A stretch of 18,235 nt of DNA, taken from NCBI GenBank assembly GCA_002311635.1, contig DBZJ01000110.1, positions 1-18,235 of the forward strand, written 5' to 3'. The position numbers were made by a program, and so were the translations under genes. Of the stretch, positions 4,750-12,680 are shown one piece after another; positions within the stretch are counted from its first letter, which is position 1; each line of letters begins with the position of its first letter. This DNA comes from Syntrophaceae bacterium UBA1163 (lineage in GTDB: Bacteria > Desulfobacterota > BSN033 > UBA1163). The notes under the pieces were generated by a model. It saw nothing but the letters and a program-made list of their open reading frames with translations. It was not told the DNA's origin and ran no database searches.

Positions 4750-4820
4750 TGGGGGGTCGTCTAGCGGTAGGACTATGGACTCTGGCTCCATCAACCGAGG
4801 TTCGAATCCTTGCCCCCCAG
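4750..4820 (+). tRNA. tRNA-Gln (anticodon CUG)
   Basis: The sequence folds into a full cloverleaf. The acceptor stem is TGGGGGG paired with CCCCCCA. The D-arm is GTCT/GGAC. The anticodon stem ATGGA/TCCAT encloses the loop CTCTGGC with anticodon CTG. The T-arm is CGAGG-TTCGAAT-CCTTG, and the discriminator base is G. The weak U-A first pair and G73 are typical of tRNA-Gln. The 3' CCA is not encoded in full (GCA follows). The 3' half is shared with the end of the integrase gene, marking the tRNA as the integration target. Confidence 0.96.
4791..4820. other. Presumed attachment site within the tRNA-Gln 3' end
   Basis: The last ten codons of the integrase frame, including stop, fall inside the anticodon-to-acceptor 3' half of the tRNA. 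Integrases of tRNA-targeting islands usually recombine in this region and restore the tRNA. The exact core cannot be fixed because no second copy was found in the window. Confidence 0.5.
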
Positions 4821-5927
4821 CAAATTTCCTTTTTTACTTTCAGGTAGTTGTATATCTTGATGCAGTATAACCTTTTTATAACCCCGGCCCCTAATGATAT
4901 CCTCTAAGGTCTGTAGTTGGTAAGCGGCATACCGTTCTGTGGTCTTGCTGGTGGTATGGGAGTAGACCCTCCTAATTTCATCCAAGCTAAAACCCTCATT
5001 TAACCGTTGGCACCCAAAACTGTGCCTCATGGCATTGTAAAGGTTAATGAGGGCAATCCCCGATGTTTTGTTGGCTCTGTTCCAAATAAGATTGAGCATC
5101 CGATTGGTGTACGGTCTCCATTCTCTCCTCCACTGTTTAGCAAAGACAAATTGGGAGCCACTTCCATTTTCAAATATCCATCTCAGTTCAGGAAGGATGG
5201 GGAGTATTTTGATCCGCTTGGTTTTGGTGTAAGGTTTAAGATTGCCTGTTGCTCCAAGGACGGAAGTTATGACAAAGTAAGCAGGGTTGTTATCCAAGAA
5301 GACATTCTCCTTGAGTAGCCCAGATGCTTCATTTGTCCTTGTGCCATATCTTCTCATAAACTCAAAGACGGGTAGGTCTTGTTTAGCGATGTACTGAAGT
5401 ACCTTATCTTGCTCTTCCTCAGTAAGCCACTTGATGGGTTTTTCTTGGACAGTAATTCTGGGAAAGTCGGGCAACTCCTTTAAAAGTCTTTTGTGAAATC
5501 TAAAGAATGATCTAAGCTCCCCCATATAGTTGTAAATGCTTTTGTCCTTCAATCCCTTGCTCTTTAGAAAGGCAAGGAACTGCAATATATCATTTGTCTT
5601 TATTGCCCGGATATCCCGTTGTTTGAAGAAACGAAGAAAAAATCTGTTGGCTATCTGTTTTCTCTGTTCAAGCCATTCACGGGAACAGGTTGATAACTTT
5701 TTCCACGTTTCGATGGCAACGTCGAACCTATAAACCTTTTCCTTTATCCCGAACCGTTCGGGGTCGAACCCATACTCCTGTAAATACTTTATCAAAAGCT
5801 GGCAATCCTTTTTGCTTTTTAAAGGCTCGTCGTATGCCAAGCTTCTGGTAAGGTGGATTTGTTCACCTTGGTAGGTAAAGTAGACCTGATATCGTTTCGG
5901 CTTATATTCATAGAAAGAGAATTTCAT
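4791..5927 (-). CDS. int: Tyrosine recombinase/integrase
   Basis: The 378-residue protein has an N-terminal arm-type DNA-binding region (1-60), a SAM-like core-binding domain (about 65-155) and a catalytic domain. Candidate catalytic residues are R197 ([11 protein letters not shown]), R301-H302 ([10 protein letters not shown]), H324 ([12 protein letters not shown]) and nucleophile Y333. The usual HxxR motif reads NxxR (N298), a deviation from the common pattern. Known role of the family: site-specific integration and excision. The frame ends inside the tRNA-Gln gene (C-terminal GKDSNLG is encoded by the tRNA), the hallmark of a tRNA-inserted element. The ATG at 5927 has a clear AAGGAGG about 8 bases upstream. 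Confidence 0.93.
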
Positions 5928-6081
5928 CTACTTTCCCTCCTTGCCACAACCTACCCTTTAACCGATGGTAAGTGATTTGGTGGATGGTGGATTTTGGATC
6001 AGTTATGGTGGCCACAGAGTAGTCAGGCCCAACATCCTTTAACTGGATTACCTTTGACTTCCCATCCCAGTGCCTTTGCCA
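5908..6081 (-). pseudogene. Small frame upstream of the integrase, no canonical start (possible excisionase-like or frameshifted gene)
   Basis: A 57-codon open frame on the minus strand looks coding (DGKSKVIQLKDVGPDYSVAT, then [19 protein letters not shown]) and overlaps the start of the integrase gene by 20 bases, suggesting translational coupling. It has no ATG, GTG or TTG near its beginning. The well-placed ribosome site AGGAGG and ATG at 6082 lead instead into another frame that stops after 19 codons at 6023 (MAKALGWEVKGNPVKGCWA). A one-base indel between 6060 and 6080 would join the two. It may be a pseudogene, a sequencing error or a programmed frameshift. Position before int suggests an accessory recombination factor, but no HTH motif is evident. 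Confidence 0.45.
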
Positions 6082-6214
6082 TTAGGTAACCTCCTTGACT
6101 TACTACTTAATAACATCCAATCCATTAGAACCCAAACCACCGCAGCAACCCCCCAAGAGAATTCCTTACTTACAAAATCCCATATTGGAGCGTTTGGGTA
6201 GAGATGGGGGGTTA

Positions 6215-7219
6215 TTAATGATTTTTAGTCCGTGACTTCAGAAATTTCCTCCATTCAGGAAGTCGAAATCCTAAGACTTGAAACAAAAGTTCCTGAGCCT
6301 TTGCTTTGAGCTTTTCTTCTTCCATCTCCTCTTTACTCATCGGCACCTCCATCTTAAAGATTTTACCCTTTTTACCCATTGCTTCGTAGGACCCTTCCAT
6401 CCTAAAGGTTTTGCTCTCTTTTTTGGGAACAAAATTGAACCACAAAACCTCGGTTCTTGGGGTTCTTTTTTTGCCGCTCACACCACATTGAACTTTAATA
6501 TTAGACCGATGCCATCCATTTTTCTCTAATGGCTTATAGATTGAATTGGCATATCCTGATAGCACAAATTTACCCTTAGAGTTTAGCAGTAAATCAACAA
6601 GCTCTTTATGATCATCGTTGGTCATCTCTTTTTCGTACACTTTTTTAGCCTTCCTTGTCTCAGGGACATATGGAGGATCCAAATACAAGAAATTTTCTTC
6701 CCTATCATAACGTGGAATAAGTTTTCTAAAATCTTCGTGATCAATCTGAACCTTCTTAAGCCTATAATGAAAATCCTGTAAAGCTTCTGGTATTTTGGCC
6801 CATACTTTACTAAGGGCACCATTGGGTTTAATACTACGACCCCATCCACTTCTAATTATCCCACCTATAGACATGGAGGCTAAAATATACCATCGATAAG
6901 CTCTTTCTACTGAATAGGGAGGGAGACTATCCAAAGTAGAGTCACAATAATCATATTCCTCTTTGCTAAATGGAGTTAAATCAATTTTTTCAACAAGAGT
7001 ATCTAAATCCTTTTTATTCCGAAGTACTCTATAAAAATTTACAATATCAGAATCAAAGTCATTAAGAACCTCAAGCTGAGATATAAATGGGGATTTAGCA
7101 AAGAGCAAAGCACATGAGCCGCAAAAAACTTCTACATAAGTTTCATGAGATGGAATAAGTTCTAACAACTTGGGCACAAGATTACTTTTGCCACCAATAT
7201 ATCTGAACGGTTTTTTCAT
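6215..7219 (-). CDS. D12-class (Dam-like) N6-adenine DNA methyltransferase
   Basis: The 334-residue protein opens with the D12-class signature KPFRYIGGKSNLVPKLLELI, has the SAM-binding motif I variant YVEVFCGSCALLF (28-40) and the catalytic DPPY at 181-184 (LYLDPPYVPET), followed by VLSGY. The family methylates adenine N6 in short DNA sites. Motif I usually reads EPFxGGG; here it is EVFCGSC. The C-terminal 60 residues are charged and lie beyond the usual Dam core. No restriction partner is adjacent, so it is probably an orphan methylase of a mobile element, used for protection or replication control (inference). The ATG lies one base after the stop of the upstream gene, so the two are coupled. 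Confidence 0.9.
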   Translation of the reverse strand: MKKPFRYIGGKSNLVPKLLELIPSHETYVEVFCGSCALLFAKSPFISQLEVLNDFDSDIVNFYRVLRNKKDLDTLVEKIDLTPFSKEEYDYCDSTLDSLPPYSVERAYRWYILASMSIGGIIRSGWGRSIKPNGALSKVWAKIPEALQDFHYRLKKVQIDHEDFRKLIPRYDREENFLYLDPPYVPETRKAKKVYEKEMTNDDHKELVDLLLNSKGKFVLSGYANSIYKPLEKNGWHRSNIKVQCGVSGKKRTPRTEVLWFNFVPKKESKTFRMEGSYEAMGKKGKIFKMEVPMSKEEMEEEKLKAKAQELLFQVLGFRLPEWRKFLKSRTKNH

Positions 7220-7220
7220 T

Positions 7221-7997
7221 CTAATTCCCCTTCATCGATTTAGGAGGTTCGGCATAAGGGCAGCCGTAATAACAATTTTTAATATCTTTTTCCTCTCCCG
7301 CTTCCTTCTTTCTTATACAAGATCGGATGATTGATTCAGTTCTCCTAAACTCTTCCGATTTGATAGCTTCATCGGGATTACAGGACATCACTGACTTGAT
7401 AAGTTCTTTAGCTTCTTTCTCTGATTTAACGATATTTAACTTAGAAAAAATCCCCCACACACCCGGCTTAATGTTTATGATTTGGTAATTCTCATAAGGG
7501 ATTATCTTTCCCAATGATTTCCCATTCCCTGATATTGGTCTATCTTTCTTAACCAATGAAATTTTTTGACCATCAATCCTTCTCAAAATGCTTTTTTTGT
7601 AAGGGACGTATCCTTTTTTTCGGGATTCTTCTATAACTTCTTTTATTATAGAAAGATGATTAGCCAATTTCTGAGCTTCAAAAGATTCTCTTTTAGTTAT
7701 ACCGAGTTCCGTTAAAGTTCTCCCGGCGTAACCAATTCCTTTCTTACCCCTTGGAATGGAAAGATTTTTTAAAAGTGTTCCTAATTTTGCTTCAGCATAA
7801 AAAACCTCTTCCGCCAAAAGTTGTCCTTCTTTTGCAGCTCTGTCTCGGAGTTCTTTTGCCATATCAAGTCTATTCACTGCTTCAACTTTCGCACGGTAGG
7901 CTTTCAATCTCTCAGTGTTCAGGATAACAAATGCATGTAATTTTTCTACTTTCCCAGAAAGGGCGGTGCTGCCCCGGAGCTGAATATTCTTTTCCAT
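7221..7997 (-). CDS. Phage/plasmid-type hypothetical protein, possibly ParB-accessory-like
   Basis: A 258-residue helical protein. Residues 15-100 (RLDMAKELRDRAAKEGQLLA, then EEVFYAEAKLGTLLKN) resemble small phage and plasmid proteins often found beside ParB-like genes. Residues 85-125 (ELGITKRESFEAQKLANHL) resemble an HTH-containing segment in the same group. The C-terminal part carries a Cys pair (CYYGCPYAEPPK). Function is unknown; DNA binding is plausible. An upstream TTG start at 8027 is possible, but the ATG at 7997 has GAGG about 6 bases upstream and is preferred. It is the first gene of the leftward operon and its stop is one base from the methyltransferase start. Confidence 0.65.
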   Translation of the reverse strand: MEKNIQLRGSTALSGKVEKLHAFVILNTERLKAYRAKVEAVNRLDMAKELRDRAAKEGQLLAEEVFYAEAKLGTLLKNLSIPRGKKGIGYAGRTLTELGITKRESFEAQKLANHLSIIKEVIEESRKKGYVPYKKSILRRIDGQKISLVKKDRPISGNGKSLGKIIPYENYQIINIKPGVWGIFSKLNIVKSEKEAKELIKSVMSCNPDEAIKSEEFRRTESIIRSCIRKKEAGEEKDIKNCYYGCPYAEPPKSMKGN

Positions 7998-8041
7998 TTC
8001 TCGCCTCGGCAGGATGACAGTTAGCAAGTTTTTTATGGTGA

Positions 8042-8070
8042 TTATTAAGCAAAATTCGTGCCGATGTTAA
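8042..8070 (-). promoter_or_regulatory. Candidate promoter of the leftward operon
   Basis: On the minus strand TTAACA (8070-8065), 17 bases, then TAATAA (8047-8042). It lies about 45 bases above the 7997 start. The -10 match is moderate. Confidence 0.35.
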
Positions 8071-8079
8071 GATAAAAAT

Positions 8080-8100
8080 AGGGGGCTCTCAATGCCCCCT
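8080..8100 (-). terminator. Candidate Rho-independent terminator (minus strand)
   Basis: A 7-bp stem, AGGGGGC (8080-8086) and GCCCCCT (8094-8100), encloses a 7-base loop. Read on the minus strand it is followed by ATTTTTATC. It lies immediately after a short minus-strand open frame (8213-8106) that ends in a Lys/Arg-rich stretch. That frame (AKSGVRGLLYRELKRKANMKK) has no good start and may be the 3' remnant of a gene. Confidence 0.45.
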
Positions 8101-8218
8101 GTTGGTTACTTCTTCATATTAGCCTTTCGTTTGAGTTCCCGATAAAGCAATCCTCTTACCCCGGACTTAGCTAACTTCTTCGAGCGTTGTGGAAGGGCTC
8201 TGTCAGGGGCGTTTCAGC

Positions 8219-8265
8219 AAAGTTTATACCCAACACAGATAAGAATGGGTAAAACTTTGTATAAT
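8219..8265 (+). promoter_or_regulatory. Inverted repeat overlapping a -10 element (candidate operator)
   Basis: AAAGTTTATACCCA (8219-8232) and TGGGTAAAACTTT (8246-8258) form an inverted repeat with one extra base in the left arm and a 13-base gap. A perfect TATAAT (8260-8265) follows directly. No good -35 is seen at the right distance, which would fit an activated or repressed promoter. It sits between the leftward and rightward modules of the element. Confidence 0.45.
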
Positions 8266-8320
8266 TTAGATATAGAGAATGAGCCAGCACTCGCAACAAA
8301 GCATAAGACCGGGGGATATA

Positions 8321-8527
8321 ATGGCGGCAAACAGCCGATCAATCAGCAAAGTGGCATCAAAGTATGGTTATGCCCCCTCCCAAATACCCCGCCGGGGTAT
8401 GAAAACATACCCTTTATCGTTGAAATTTGGGGCTGTGGCAAGAGATCAGGGAGAGATAAGTAGTCTTTGGCTGGCAGGGGGTTTTAAATACCCCCCGTCA
8501 AACTACGTTATTATACAATTATCTTAA
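8321..8527 (+). CDS. Doubtful small ORF in the control region
   Basis: A 68-codon frame starts at an ATG preceded by GGGGG (6 bases away). It opens with SRSISKVASKYGYAPSQIPR, which has a weak HTH-like look, and ends with a TAA inside a TTAAGGAGG ribosome site. An alternative start is the ATG at 8279. The frame contains two of the region's G/C-run hairpins, and another overlapping frame (8245-8463) is equally open. The evidence for coding is therefore weak. Confidence 0.25.
   Translation: MAANSRSISKVASKYGYAPSQIPRRGMKTYPLSLKFGAVARDQGEISSLWLAGGFKYPPSNYVIIQLS
8384..8495. repeat. G/C-run palindromes
   Basis: ATACCCC-GCC-GGGGTAT (8384-8400) is a 7-bp hairpin with a 3-base loop. GGGGGT-TTTAAAT-ACCCCC (8477-8495) is a 6-bp hairpin with a 7-base loop, the same layout as the 8080-8100 hairpin. 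Neither is followed by a T-run on the plus strand. They may be protein-binding sites or RNA structures. Confidence 0.5.
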
Positions 8528-8610
8528 GGAGGTGTTAACGAGAAAAAGCAAGTTTGGTATCAATTTATGGAAATTTAAAAGGTCAGATAAGGAGTGAGGA
8601 GGCGGTAAAA

Positions 8611-8733
8611 ATGAAGAAACTGTTGTTGCTGGTTGTGGTGATCGGGTTGTTAATGAGTGGGATAGCAGGAGCTGAAGGAGCTTGGGGGCTGTGGACTGTT
8701 TTTGGTAGCACTCTTTATTCGATAGGAGCGTGA
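8611..8733 (+). CDS. Small exported or membrane peptide (40 aa)
   Basis: The ATG follows GAGGAGG by 8 bases, one of the best ribosome sites in the window. The 40-residue product starts MKKLLLLVVVIGLLMSGIAG, a textbook signal peptide or single membrane helix, with a possible cleavage near AGAEG. The remainder (AEGAWGLWTVFGSTLYSIGA) is short and hydrophobic. Function unknown; small holin-like, toxin-like or regulatory peptides are options. It is the first clear gene of the rightward module. Confidence 0.6.
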   Translation: MKKLLLLVVVIGLLMSGIAGAEGAWGLWTVFGSTLYSIGA

Positions 8734-8921
8734 GTATCAAGAAGTTTAAAAGGTGAAATTATATAATTAATACATAGGGAGAGAAGTGGAATTGAACCCG
8801 ATAGAGCCGGAAACATTTGAGTAGTATATGGGCGGTGCTCTTACGTGAGCACACAAGACTTCATGCTCTAAGAAGGAGTGAATTGGTGACAATAGAATTG
8901 GCAGAAGGGAGGTGAAAATTT
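8734..8921 (+). other. Intergenic leader before the Cys-cluster gene
   Basis: The stretch contains a TATAAT at 8762-8767 without a clear -35. A mini-frame at 8786-8824 (GTG start after GGGAGAGAA) encodes MELNPIEPETFE. A perfect hairpin GTGCTC-TTACGT-GAGCAC lies at 8835-8852. No T-run follows the hairpin. It may be an untranslated leader with structure; nothing else was recognised. Confidence 0.3.
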
Positions 8922-9437
8922 ATGAGTAATGAAAATAGTAGTATAAAGCATCTACCTGATTCAGGGCTGGTTAATTTGAGAGACCTGTCGGAGTATTTTG
9001 GCATCAGGCTTGACAGGATGCAGGCCAAGCTCAAAAATGCGGGGATTAGTACCACGGATTTAAGCCGAAATTCCCGGTTCCGTTTCGTGAATTTGGCCGA
9101 GTTTGCCAAGTCAGACCTTAAGCTCGCTCCGCATGTTCCTTTGAAGGGGTTTAGGAAGAAAGGGGCAGACCTCAAAGATCGCCCTGTGCCTGAAAAGGAA
9201 GCCCAAATGACCTTGCAAGAAGCCAAGGGCAGGATAGTCTTTCTAACTGGCCACCCAGATGAAGATAAACGACTCAGGGGAGAACTTATGAATTCCGATT
9301 GCTTTGGTAAGATGTATGGTGCGGATGATTGTTGTCAGAATTGCACCCGGCCTGTTGACCTCGATGGCACAAAAGGGCCTCTCAAACTCTTTTGTCAAGC
9401 AATGTCTCCCCAACCAGTTGAGATCAAAGCTGCATAA
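8922..9437 (+). CDS. Hypothetical protein with HTH-like N-terminus and Cys cluster
   Basis: A 171-residue protein. Residues 15-45 (GLVNLRDLSEYFGIRLDRMQ onward) look like a helix-turn-helix of the type that opens element regulators. Residues 127-158 hold five cysteines (C127, C137, C138, C141, C158) in DCFGKMYGADDCCQNC, similar to CFGxxYxxxDxxCxxC zinc clusters seen in phage and plasmid proteins. Zinc binding and DNA binding are inferred. The ATG has GGGAGGTG about 8 bases upstream. It is the first larger gene of the rightward replication module and could regulate it. No named family was recognised. Confidence 0.7.
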   Translation: MSNENSSIKHLPDSGLVNLRDLSEYFGIRLDRMQAKLKNAGISTTDLSRNSRFRFVNLAEFAKSDLKLAPHVPLKGFRKKGADLKDRPVPEKEAQMTLQEAKGRIVFLTGHPDEDKRLRGELMNSDCFGKMYGADDCCQNCTRPVDLDGTKGPLKLFCQAMSPQPVEIKAA

Positions 9438-9632
9438 AGAATCCCATCCTATTAGCTCCAGCACAGACTGGGCCACCTTAAATCTGTTACCAAAAGGTGT
9501 GGAACACCTATAAAAACTCAGACTATTGCATGGCGGGCAAAGTCTTAAAAGATGATACCTTGGCTCCCCAACCAAGAAAGGAGAGATGAGAACATGGAAT
9601 GGCCATGATCTATTTTAAGGAGGTCGTTTAAC
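9438..9632 (+). other. Gap with hairpin and two overlapping mini-ORFs
   Basis: AGGTGT-GGA-ACACCT (9495-9509) is a 6-bp hairpin. Two mini-frames follow: 9530-9589 (MAGKVLKDDTLAPQPRKER) and 9586-9618 (MRTWNGHDLF). They overlap by an ATGA stop/start, and the second ends inside the AAGGAGG of the next gene. This layout would fit translational coupling, but both peptides are very short and unproven. Confidence 0.3.
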
Positions 9633-9905
9633 ATGACGATCAGAAAGATCACAGAGGTTAACCTTATAGCCTACCTCAAATGCAAAGGCTATCATGAAGC
9701 AGAACCACCTAAAGTAACCGGCCCCTTTGTCACCTTTTATTTAGAAGATTCCCCCGAACTAAGAAAAGAGATAGAAACCTATTTCAACCAAAAAGCACTG
9801 GTTGAGCCTATGACTATGGTTGAATCTCTTCGCCTTATAAAAAGTAAGGTAGGAGATATGAAGAGGAATAGGGAATCCCGATCTGGGGGTGGCTCTGATG
9901 AATAA
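9633..9905 (+). CDS. DUF5659-like small protein
   Basis: A 90-residue protein with the pattern of the DUF5659 family: NLIAYLKCKGY near the start, GPFVTFYLEDSPELRKEIET in the middle (about 31-50), YFNQKALVEP and a helix VESLRLIKSKV. Proteins of this kind occur beside phage and integrative-element primases; no biochemical role is established to my knowledge. The ATG follows TTAAGGAGG by 10 bases. The last codons overlap the start of the primase-helicase gene by 8 bases, so the two are probably co-translated. The family assignment is by eye. Confidence 0.75.
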   Translation: MTIRKITEVNLIAYLKCKGYHEAEPPKVTGPFVTFYLEDSPELRKEIETYFNQKALVEPMTMVESLRLIKSKVGDMKRNRESRSGGGSDE

Positions 9906-12063
9906 GCAATGTAAAGAATGCGGGGCACCCATAATTGTGGCCAATGTTGGCAATACATGCCCGGCCTGCACAGAAAAGAAACTTGAAAAGATAAGGGCAA
10001 AGTATAGGGACAAGGAGCAGACAGGTGATCAAATACCCAAGGACTCTAAAAAAGACCCCAAAGTCCTACCATTAAATGAGCTGAGGAAGCTGGCAACTAA
10101 GGAACATAGCAAGAAGGTCTTTGAAGCCGCAAAGAAGTATGTAGCAAAGGGATACTCTGTCCTTCCTATCATACTGGGGGATAAATACCCGTCGGTCAAG
10201 GGAGAGCACATGAAATGGACTGAGTATCAGGATAGGCTCCCCACAGAGAGTGAGCTGATCAAGTGGTTTGAGAACCCCCATAATCAGATCGGCGTTATAA
10301 CAGGGAAAGTATCCGGGGGTCTGTTTATCTTTGACTTTGATAGCATCAAAGGAAACCCCACGGATGACTGGGAGAAAGCATTTGATGAATTCTTAGAGAA
10401 GTTCCCCGAATTCAGGGACAGCCTGTGTATTATGACAGGCTCAGGCAAACTTCACATCTATGGGATGTGCCCTGAGATGCAAAGAAATCTAACCCGCAAG
10501 GTCAAGTATATCAGGGATAAGCATACGGGGAAGACCGTAGCAGCCATTGAGTTTAGGGCAAACGATAGTCAATCTCTGTGCCCTCCATCTATCCACCCCT
10601 ATGGGGGAGAATATACCCCTGTGGATGAGGGAAAGGAACCTGCCCCGATCAGCTTATCAAGGTTGAATGAAATACTGGCCCAGTTTGATGAAGTGGAACC
10701 TGTAGGGGCAAAGGATGATAGTAAGCAACCCAAGAAACCCGAAGGCTGGCAAGACCCTATATTAGAAGGCTTAGATGACGGCGAGAGACACACAGGTATC
10801 ATAGCAGAGGCAGCACGACTGATAGGCAAGGGGTTATCAAAGGGTGAGATAATGCCGACACTCCTTGATATCAACTTAAGGTCTACTCCCCCTCTTGAAG
10901 AGTGGGAAGTTGAGGAAATGTATGAGAACAGGCTCAGGAAGGACATCGAGAATCACCCTGAGAAATACAGGAAAGCAGATGAAGCCCAGAAAGAAGAAGT
11001 CATCATTAAGAGAATAGATGACTATAAACTACTTGATAGGAAGGAGTTGAAAACGATGTTAGAGAATCAAACAGAACCCAAGTGGCTCTGGGATGGAATC
11101 CTACCACAGAACGGACTGAGCTTATTACTGGCAAAGCCCAAGGTAGGCAAGAGTGTGTTTGCATTTAATCTGGCTCTCAGAGTATCAAGGGGAGAGCCCT
11201 TCCTTGGGAAGAGCACAACTCAAGGAGATGTCCTATACCTTGCCCTTGAAGAGAGTGCAGAGCAGGTGGATAAGAACTGGGACTCTTTTAATAAGACTAA
11301 TGGGGAGCCCAGTGGTGGAGAACACCTCTATGTCCACTTCGGGTCAGCACCCACAGAAGCCCTCAAGAAACTTGAGAAGGCCATAGAGATGAGAGAGATC
11401 AAGCCGAAGCTTGTGGTCATAGACCTCTTACAGAAATTTGCCAGAATCAAGAAGATAGAAGACTATGCAGAAGTGATCACCGCCATTGAGCCTATTATGG
11501 ACATGGCAAGAAGGTTAGGATGTCATATCCTTCTAACCCACCACTCCCCGAAAGGTGAAAGGGAATTGATAGAGAGCGGTCTGGGGTCTATGGGGTTAAC
11601 GGGGTCTGTGGACACCGTCATCCTTATTAAGAAGACTCCAGCACCATCGGACAGACGGTCATTCTCTACAGATCAGAGATACAGGAAATCTGGGGTTGAG
11701 AATATTAAGGACTGGGTGATCGACCTCAAGGAAGATGATATAACCTTGGAACTGGCGGGCACGATATCGGAAGTCACGGAGACTGATGCCAAGGAGCACA
11801 TCCTGAGACTGATGGGTGATATCGGCAAGGAAGGAAGCTTTTATACTGAACCGATGACCAGTGAGCAAATCAGGGAAGAGATCAAGAAGAGTAAAGCCCA
11901 AACTCTGGGATACCTCAAGGAGCTTTTTGGGGATAAGAAAATTAGAAGGGAAGGAACTGGACGTAAGAAAGACCCCTTTAAATATTCCGGTGAGCCCAAA
12001 GAGATGTGGAGAAGGAGCAAGAAGGGACAGGTGAATTATGAGCCTGAGTGTGAGTGCCAATAA
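9898..12063 (+). CDS. Primase-helicase (Prim-Pol + RepA-like ATPase)
   Basis: A 721-residue replication protein. Domains in order: zinc ribbon (C5, C8, C21, C24); AEP-type Prim-Pol domain, about 75-250, with catalytic D146-x-D148 (FIFDFDS), TGSGKLHIYG with H186, and CPPSIHPYGGEY; PriCT-like helical linker, about 290-350 (ERHTGIIAEAARLIGKGLS); RecA-fold ATPase of the RepA/AAA_25 kind, about 385-600, with Walker A LAKPKVGKS (K418), Walker B LVVIDLL (D509) and ILLTHHSPKGE. A C-terminal winged-helix-like part follows. Such fusions start replication of plasmids, phages and satellites. A GTG at 9889 is possible; the ATG at 9898 gives the expected zinc-ribbon start and overlaps the upstream gene by 8 bases. 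Iteron-like repeats begin right after its stop. Confidence 0.92.
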   Translation: MNKQCKECGAPIIVANVGNTCPACTEKKLEKIRAKYRDKEQTGDQIPKDSKKDPKVLPLNELRKLATKEHSKKVFEAAKKYVAKGYSVLPIILGDKYPSVKGEHMKWTEYQDRLPTESELIKWFENPHNQIGVITGKVSGGLFIFDFDSIKGNPTDDWEKAFDEFLEKFPEFRDSLCIMTGSGKLHIYGMCPEMQRNLTRKVKYIRDKHTGKTVAAIEFRANDSQSLCPPSIHPYGGEYTPVDEGKEPAPISLSRLNEILAQFDEVEPVGAKDDSKQPKKPEGWQDPILEGLDDGERHTGIIAEAARLIGKGLSKGEIMPTLLDINLRSTPPLEEWEVEEMYENRLRKDIENHPEKYRKADEAQKEEVIIKRIDDYKLLDRKELKTMLENQTEPKWLWDGILPQNGLSLLLAKPKVGKSVFAFNLALRVSRGEPFLGKSTTQGDVLYLALEESAEQVDKNWDSFNKTNGEPSGGEHLYVHFGSAPTEALKKLEKAIEMREIKPKLVVIDLLQKFARIKKIEDYAEVITAIEPIMDMARRLGCHILLTHHSPKGERELIESGLGSMGLTGSVDTVILIKKTPAPSDRRSFSTDQRYRKSGVENIKDWVIDLKEDDITLELAGTISEVTETDAKEHILRLMGDIGKEGSFYTEPMTSEQIREEIKKSKAQTLGYLKELFGDKKIRREGTGRKKDPFKYSGEPKEMWRRSKKGQVNYEPECECQ

Positions 12064-12277
12064 ATGCGGTTTTGTGGTTTTACCCTATATAAAATATAAG
12101 AAAAACCGAATTGATTTTGTGGGTGAATTTAACTATAAAAATTTGAAAAGAAAATGCGGTTTTACTTACTTTATTTATAAAGTAGAACCGCAAAACCGAA
12201 TCATGGATACCCTATATTTATTGAAAAAATGCGGTTTTAACCTGTTTTTTAAATCCACCACTCAAAAAACCGAATAA
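12038..12277 (+). CDS. Possible ORF running through the repeat region
   Basis: A 79-codon frame starts inside the primase-helicase gene at an ATG with AGGTG about 5 bases upstream. It contains KCGF three times (codons from TGC at 12065, 12155 and 12230), which is simply the translation of the TGCGGTTTT repeats. Spacings of 90 and 75 bases keep them in frame. The repeats continue past its stop in both orientations, so a DNA-level role explains them better than a protein. Kept as a low-confidence call. Confidence 0.25.
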   Translation: MSLSVSANKCGFVVLPYIKYKKNRIDFVGEFNYKNLKRKCGFTYFIYKVEPQNRIMDTLYLLKKCGFNLFFKSTTQKTE

Positions 12278-12345
12278 AACCGAATGAACCGAAAAACCGA
12301 ATGGGAGCCACGCAAGTGGAAAACCGCAAAACCACAAAACCGAAA
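12064..12345. repeat. Iteron-like repeat cluster, candidate origin of replication
   Basis: An AT-rich stretch holds twelve exact copies of AACCG or its complement CGGTT, usually within AAAACCG(A/C)A. CGGTT lies at 12067, 12157 and 12232. AACCG lies at 12104, 12186, 12194, 12268, 12278, 12287, 12295, 12322 and 12338. Near-copies occur at 12076 (TGGTT) and 12330 (AACCA). The left part is built of units TGCGGTTTT-(about 30 AT-rich bases)-AAAACCGAAT, each an imperfect inverted repeat, with an exact 90-base shift between the first two. The right part has direct copies 8-10 bases apart. Its position directly behind the primase-helicase fits an origin recognised by an element-encoded protein (inference). 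Confidence 0.75.
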
Positions 12346-12376
12346 GGACAAGATTGGGTGAGTAAGGGTGACTCAA

Positions 12377-12625
12377 ATGACAGAATTTGACAGACAGGAT
12401 AGACAGATCACTCAAGACAATCCTGAAGATATCAAAGAATTTATAGTATCCAACGGGCTGGACAAGTCTATATTGGACGAGAGAGATGGAGCCCTTGAAG
12501 ACTGGCGACTCAAATGGGAGGGCATGGTCAAAGGCTTTATGAATTATCTTCAGGAAAGGTTTGCAAGCATCGAGCAGAGGTTGAACAGGATGGAAGGAGA
12601 ACGGTATGGACATCAAAAGGACTGA
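12377..12625 (+). CDS. Small acidic coiled-coil-like protein
   Basis: An 82-residue charged protein of unknown family. Residues 1-45 are acidic (MTEFDRQDRQITQDNPEDIK). Residues 50-80 (MVKGFMNYLQERFASIEQRL) have heptad-like spacing of hydrophobic residues that suggests a short coiled coil. The ATG follows AAGGGTG by about 6 bases; an in-frame GTG lies at 12368. It is the last gene of the rightward module, just after the repeat cluster, and may be a small partner of the replication proteins (inference only). Confidence 0.55.
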   Translation: MTEFDRQDRQITQDNPEDIKEFIVSNGLDKSILDERDGALEDWRLKWEGMVKGFMNYLQERFASIEQRLNRMEGERYGHQKD

Positions 12626-12653
12626 ATCTGAATGTAAGAGAATATCAGGCAGG

Positions 12654-12680
12654 AAGCGACGGGTTCGATTCCCGTCGCTT
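12654..12680. other. tRNA T-arm-like perfect hairpin (possible att scar or bidirectional terminator)
   Basis: AAGCGACGGG, the 7-base loop TTCGATT, and CCCGTCGCTT form a perfect 10-bp stem. The inner 5 bp with the loop match a tRNA T-arm. No D-arm, anticodon arm or acceptor partner is found upstream. It lies between convergent genes (29 bases past one stop, 5 bases before the other), so it could act as a terminator, although no T-run follows. It may alternatively be a 3' tRNA fragment left by an integration event. Confidence 0.5.

Follow-up and report, generated by a model that had tools for sequence, protein, structure and literature searches.

A repeat array at the 3′ end of a primase-helicase gene as the probable replication origin of a tRNA-integrated element

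Results

Gene content of the element

The window (the whole stretch of DNA analysed, 18,235 nucleotides) contains a tRNA-Gln gene at positions 4750..4821 of the plus strand, the sole Rfam match and the likely attachment site of the element described here. A tyrosine integrase gene (4791..5927, minus strand) overlaps the 3′ end of the tRNA gene and is followed on the same strand by a gene for a Dam-like D12 adenine methylase (6215-7219), also part of the element, and by an ORF of unknown function. The plus strand then carries, in this order, the genes for a 171-aa protein (8922..9437), a DUF5659 protein and a primase-helicase (9889..12063), the proposed initiator. Between the two divergent groups, the long intergenic stretch 8028-8921 lies near the GC-skew minimum and includes five ATACCC words in 300 bases from position 8201; it is probably a regulatory region. 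Immediately behind the primase-helicase gene lies a repeat array (12064..12345, no strand assigned), and a small ORF (12368-12625) begins 22 bases further on.

The whole is likely to be a small tRNA-integrated mobile element that may excise as a circle. Matches to packaging or interference genes were absent from Pfam and PHROGs for the seven ORFs tested between 4791 and 12625, and a search for a second att copy, or for the right end of the element, did not find one. On account of these two negative results the element is not classed here as a phage-inducible chromosomal island (PICI), a group that includes the SaPIs. A hairpin resembling a tRNA T-arm, built around ACGGGTTCGATTCCCGTCGC, occurs at 12655-12680, shortly behind the small ORF and once in the host genome; it may mark a remnant or a foreign attachment site close to the element's right end. 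Beside the element, the segment 14038-17322 encodes a 1094-aa protein with a strong match to Type IIG restriction-methyltransferases (PADLOC, E 2e-277). A run of N in the host contig from 18236 on (locus L017, 237-296) starts exactly at the end of the window, so the right-hand neighbourhood may be a scaffold join; judged by reading, a gene for a resolvase-like serine recombinase appears to follow at about 2247-2838 of L017.

The primase-helicase was characterised with Pfam, AlphaFold2 and Foldseek. Pfam places a PrimPol domain at residues 81-253, PriCT-1 at 291-342 and a RecA-like AAA_25 helicase at 392-556, with scores of E 1e-16 for PF09250 and E 4e-4, just below its cut-off, for PriCT-1. 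Foldseek matches of the helicase part were DnaB, Twinkle, KaiC and RSF1010 RepA, all RecA-like hexamers. The AlphaFold2 model (721 residues) has a mean pLDDT of 78 and a pTM of 0.45, so the arrangement of the domains relative to one another is uncertain. Its C-terminal unit, residues 623-698, is modelled as helix-helix-helix-strand-strand and is predicted to be a winged helix (WH). The corresponding coding part (11764..11991, plus strand), where a WH profile match ends at 11991, would specify the reader of the repeats discussed below.

The repeat array

The array has AAAACCG(A/C)A as its unit; the first unit begins at 12065, the stop codon of the primase-helicase gene ending at 12063. The twelve exact AACCG cores that a previous, sequence-only reading had counted in about 280 bases are all present, nine on the plus and three on the minus strand, and every one extends to AACCG(A/C)A (seven AACCGAA and five AACCGCA). 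Two additional copies differ from the unit by a single base and read AAAACCACA; they lie at 12073-12081 (minus) and 12328-12336 (plus). Among 282-base stretches of the 21.4-kb contig, AACCG density peaks at 12064-12345. The earlier estimate that fewer than one core would be expected by chance holds against the window average (whole-window shuffles give 27.7 cores per 18,235 bases, or about 0.4 per array length) and fails against the local AT-rich composition, dinucleotide shuffles of the array region giving a mean of 1.5 cores with a maximum of 7 in 5,000. When the word was left free to be any G/C-containing 5-mer, as a post-hoc choice demands, the shuffles averaged 5.5 copies and reached at most 11 in 2,000, as against the 12 observed.

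The layout proposed previously, with paired inverted units on the left and direct repeats at steps of 8 to 10 bases on the right, was confirmed in both its parts. Inverted core pairs lie at 12067/12104, 12157/12186 and 12232/12268. The first belongs to dyad A (12065..12110), which consists of inverted AAAACCG units and a degenerate direct copy around a 20-base spacer, ACCCTATATAAAATATAAGA, at 12082-12101; the second belongs to dyad B (12155..12200), where inverted units enclose a 20-base spacer at 12164-12183 and are followed by a second direct copy. The third inverted pair, with its spacer at 12239-12265, and the direct-repeat cluster (12266-12344) occupy 12230..12344; no strand is assigned to any of the three groups. 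On the right side the direct copies follow one another at steps of 10, 9 and 8, then 27 and 16 bases, a degenerate copy lying inside the last gap. AT content is 71% in the left part of the array (12064-12262) and 57% in the right part; the 20-base spacers of the two left inverted pairs reach 80% and 85%, and when the separate 40-base stretches of 4822-12660 are ranked by AT content, three of the top eight fall in the array. In the host genome (about 91% complete) the word pair AAAACCGAAT..AAAACCGAA, with 0-30 bases between the words, is confined to the array, and blastn of the array against phages returned a single, chance-like match. The element encodes a Dam-like D12 adenine methylase; GATC is absent from the array.

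The sequence-only reading had interpreted the array as a replication origin and named GC-skew data placing the origin elsewhere as grounds for refutation. The cumulative skew is lowest near 8.0 kb, where the direction of the genes flips; it does not point to the array and is no decisive guide here.

Repeat clusters behind related genes

The closest homologues of the primase-helicase (P0002-P0005) are 61-73% identical to it. Used alone as query, the window protein retrieved no relative from genome contigs or viral contigs, while phage and plasmid records yielded distant relatives only (305 and 13, respectively), all below 60% identity and, among the matches listed, at 23-32%. With an alignment of 24 homologues, 34 viral-contig loci and 77 genomic loci were recovered, the genomes having titles that name Deltaproteobacteria, Acidobacteria, Nitrospirae, Chloroflexi, Bacilli and others. 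On first inspection, clusters of short repeats were apparent just behind the gene or inside its 3′ end. For a count, the end of the WH served as reference point and was extrapolated where the profile match fell short of the profile end. The WH profile matched 84 of 114 loci, and the 30 without a match were excluded. L019 and L020, which lack a WH match, were included manually since repeats had already been noticed there; for these two the stop codon served as the reference point. The resulting 86 loci were reduced to 75 by removal of near-identical ones and to 74, the window being one of them, by omission of L028, which was too short. The 450 bases behind the WH were scored in each, with 1,466 tiles from the same loci as controls.

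A 7-mer with at least five copies was found in 26 of the 74 loci as opposed to 15 of the 1,466 control tiles, and one with at least six copies in 16 loci as opposed to 3 tiles. Leaving out the window, L019 and L020, the first figure became 24 of 71. In 32 of the 74 loci the region outscored its own shuffles at p ≤ 0.01, and the enrichment was also seen in the diverged subset with helicase identity of 50% or less (9/27 loci against 6/533 tiles with a 7-mer of five or more copies). Clusters are thus common but not universal, since no 7-mer with at least four copies occurred behind the WH in 28 of the 74 loci. Comparison with homologous elements was a check that the sequence-only reading had called for; many relatives carry clusters, and two loci from the host's family and genus count against the origin interpretation. 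The locus from the host's family (L018, 38% identity) has no convincing array, only a weak repeat of four copies (p 0.03), and that from the host's genus (L019) is borderline with four copies (p 0.05 by shuffles), its repeats being visible by eye. Different words are found at other loci, for example ACTTCAG in L020, CTCCACC in L062 and L067, and CATGAAC in L052. L019 also contains a tandem of AGGGTGAGC (9351-9401, 5.8 copies, period 9) about 1.6 kb upstream of its primase-helicase gene.

A shared TATA-centred dyad

The word most enriched behind the WH was GGGAAC/GTTCCC, present in at least two copies in 36 of the 74 loci as compared with 29 of the 1,466 tiles. Its common core layout is GTTCCC, a TATA-rich spacer, and GGGAAC. 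Among 52 adjacent GTTCCC..GGGAAC pairs, gaps of 10-11 bases (18 pairs), 18-19 bases (10) and 36-37 bases (10) recurred. Of the dyads with gaps of 9-11 bases, 16 of 20 had TATA or ATAT in the spacer, and the AT content of these 20 spacers was 69%, against 47% for their regions. Relative to the WH end, the first GGGAAC/GTTCCC copy fell between -20 and +60 in 35 of the 36 loci, and in 32 of the 36 at least two copies lay inside the reading frame, in the 3′ coding tail. GGGAAC was distributed over the three frames as 15, 27 and 19 copies, and GTTCCC, mainly in two of them, as 41, 29 and 3. Because GGGAAC is used in all three frames, constraint appears to act on the word as DNA and not on a single protein tail encoded by it. 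Direct copies at 8-base steps occur in many relatives. Dyad A of the window, TGCGGTTTTGTGGTTTTACCCTATATAAAATATAAGAAAAACCGAA, follows the same plan as, for example, that of L057, TTCTTGTTCCCATGTTCCCATATATATAGAGGGAACAACAAAACAAG, with a longer spacer, and the words GGGAACCGAAT in L026 and AACCGAG in L084 resemble both the common word and the window's AAAACCGAA.

The converse search started from the pattern. Viral contigs were scanned for GTTCCC N1-5 TATA N1-5 GGGAAC, with a palindrome as control and 120 matches listed for each. Among the matches listed, the dyad lay just behind such a helicase/WH gene in 30 of 120 instances and the control in 2 of 120; a helicase/WH anywhere on the locus was found for 31 of 120 and 13 of 120, respectively. 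After removal of duplicates and known loci, this position was taken by 8 of 55 dyads listed and by 1 of 60 control matches listed (p 0.013), a result that is supportive but modest; the eight loci encode distant helicases (15-45 bits) without a WH profile match. No description of a GGGAAC dyad behind such genes was found in the literature searched, a body outside which most subscription papers and bioRxiv preprints lay. Papers matched by the letters of the repeat appeared, among the matches listed, to be unrelated to judge from their titles.

The repeat word and the winged helix

The best predictor of GGGAAC within the WH was a single alignment column (z 9.5) at the start of the predicted third, or recognition, helix. 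This position is arginine or lysine in 30 of 35 GGGAAC loci and in 7 of 32 others. The GGGAAC class is distinguished by columns 9 and 5 as well (z 8.3 and 6.4), both of which lie outside the recognition helix. Partial Mantel tests over 53 loci related the motif to the recognition helix given the helicase (r 0.27, p 0.0005) and, much less, to the helicase given the recognition helix (r 0.08, p 0.14). A correlation of the motif with the remainder of the WH also persisted given the recognition helix (r 0.17, p 0.005). Any locus having a 6-mer in four copies qualified for this comparison, which means that chance words may be among the units compared, and relatedness was not fully removed, since columns outside the helix and the rest of the WH keep a signal. 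Within these bounds, there is a statistical link by which the repeat word tracks the recognition helix more than the helicase. From this covariation we infer that the repeats would be bound by their cognate initiator.

Discussion

The array is most likely the replication origin of the element, read by the primase-helicase encoded just upstream through its own C-terminal WH. The origin interpretation of the sequence-only reading is thus backed by comparison with relatives, in which repeat clusters and a shared dyad occupy the same place. We postulate that the WH of the primase-helicase binds the AAAACCG(A/C)A repeats and that oppositely oriented copies would place subunits on either side of AT-rich spacers (TATATAAAATATA and similar). 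The spacer might then melt, the RecA-like hexameric helicase could load on the melted DNA, and the PrimPol domain would prime synthesis, so that replication would start here. The previous suggestion of a composite origin with a recognition part and a melting part is plausible, because the inverted units of the array flank AT-rich spacers and the short-spacer dyads of relatives mostly carry TATA or ATAT.

The binder proposed previously was a different one, the 171-aa product of 8922-9437. Although encoded upstream, on the same strand of the same element, this protein is assigned to no family by Pfam, PHROGs, PADLOC or NCBIfam, and tblastn (E 0.01) detected no counterpart in loci L018-L132, many of which have arrays. 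We consider its binding to the repeats extremely unlikely and have replaced it with the winged helix of the primase-helicase itself, since it is this winged helix that the repeat word follows. One could also imagine that the repeats are priming sites, read as single strands by the PrimPol/PriCT part and not as duplex by the WH. The NrS-1 phage polymerase primes at an 8-base template site, 5′-TTTGGTTA-3′, of which the NrS-1 genome has one copy per strand, and a priming preference of CCPol-MP for the repeats of the SCCmec origin is described in passages of PMC7581432. Such a role is unlikely here, to judge from the closer association of the repeat word with the recognition helix than with the helicase (the PrimPol domain not being part of that comparison) and from the presence of clusters at L032, L035 and L040, where open frames of about 345-380 codons encode mainly helicase and WH.

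Two further explanations concern what the array does rather than what reads it. It may be an operator, a copy-control site or a partition site, comparable to incompatibility iterons, and not a start point. The small ORF that starts so closely behind it would fit an operator, and iteron arrays can serve both as origin and as control site. Set against this, the array sits where the initiator gene has its 3′ end, and in relatives it is often located within the coding tail and includes a TATA-rich dyad; a purely regulatory site is improbable on these grounds. Alternatively, the origin could be a long stem-loop as in pRN1, whose essential stem-loop sits behind its PrimPol gene (passages of PMC4234260), the repeats being by-products of the hairpin. 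As single-stranded DNA the segment 12060-12205 (146 bases) folds at -23.8 kcal/mol (z -5.8) into a structure made of the repeats, the fold of 12060-12350 has a z of -4.3, and the array includes a 49-base imperfect inverted repeat. Given this capacity to form a long hairpin, a pRN1-like stem-loop has to be counted among the rivals. We regard it as quite improbable: a hairpin does not need the direct-repeat half (12266-12344), direct copies recur at 8-base steps in many relatives, and it is the word, beyond the fold, that is common to the loci.

Reading the array as the origin brings the element close to several known systems. The alpha protein of satellite phage P4 also combines primase and helicase in one chain; it binds the P4 origin, in which short repeats are found. 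Its helicase is of another family than that of the window. Replication of P4 is touched on in PMC6092414 and PMC7145576. The remaining systems are compared through passages of the papers cited. In PICIs the origin follows rep directly and has iterons to the left and right of an AT-rich stretch, and a PICI rep-ori plasmid is functional in E. coli (PMC6092414). The array, as putative origin, is likewise immediately 3′ of the initiator gene, and two of its inverted pairs flank 20-base AT-rich spacers, to which the window adds a third pair and the direct cluster. The mixed architecture that had seemed unusual to the sequence-only reading thus has a published precedent. Gram-positive PICIs also share with the element an int gene transcribed away from the replication genes, with the origin, a putative one in the element, placed after them (PMC6092414). 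The differences are that the window's initiator, with PrimPol, RecA-like AAA_25 helicase and WH, is of another family, that relatives of the element often carry the array inside the coding tail, and that no packaging gene is found among the seven ORFs tested.

The C-terminal domains of SaPI Rep and of SCCmec Cch2 read repeats behind their own genes (PMC7581432). Cch2 thereby resembles the proposed initiator in being a helicase with a C-terminal domain that binds repeats just downstream of its gene; it differs in having a SaPI5-Rep/D5-type helicase and, in its putative origin, only three 5-base iterons, whereas in the window PrimPol is joined to a RecA-like helicase and the sites number a dozen. 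ORF904 of pRN1 is similarly a PrimPol-helicase-WH protein with an essential region, the putative origin, just behind its gene, this being a 100-base stem-loop combined with an SF3 helicase, in contrast to the repeated words and non-SF3, RecA-like AAA_25 helicase of the window (PMC4234260). Comparable in gene content are the integrated PrimPol-PV1 elements, with PrimPol, PriCT, RepA-like helicase and WH, whose authors suggest that the WH may take part in origin recognition; an origin sequence is not described in the passages of PMC5862659. By analogy, the class represented by the window looks like the PICI rep-ori organisation equipped with a second initiator family.

Taken jointly, the observations can be read as pointing to a large, unnamed class of replicons in bacteria and phages. 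Their origin would coincide with the 3′ end of the gene for the initiator and consist of a GTTCCC-TATA-GGGAAC dyad plus tandem copies; it would often be translated as a protein tail. The word would change with the recognition helix of the WH, having gone from GGGAAC to AAAACC in the lineage of the window, and this protein-DNA code would set which elements share origins and which exclude one another's. We give this wider reading even chances. For most integrated elements and phages no origin is known. Clusters found at the same place behind related genes in bacteria and phages could make origins predictable from sequence. If a WH-coding 3′ end does predict the origin to within a few hundred bases, and its recognition helix the repeat word, the origins of many uncultured elements could be tested from sequence alone.
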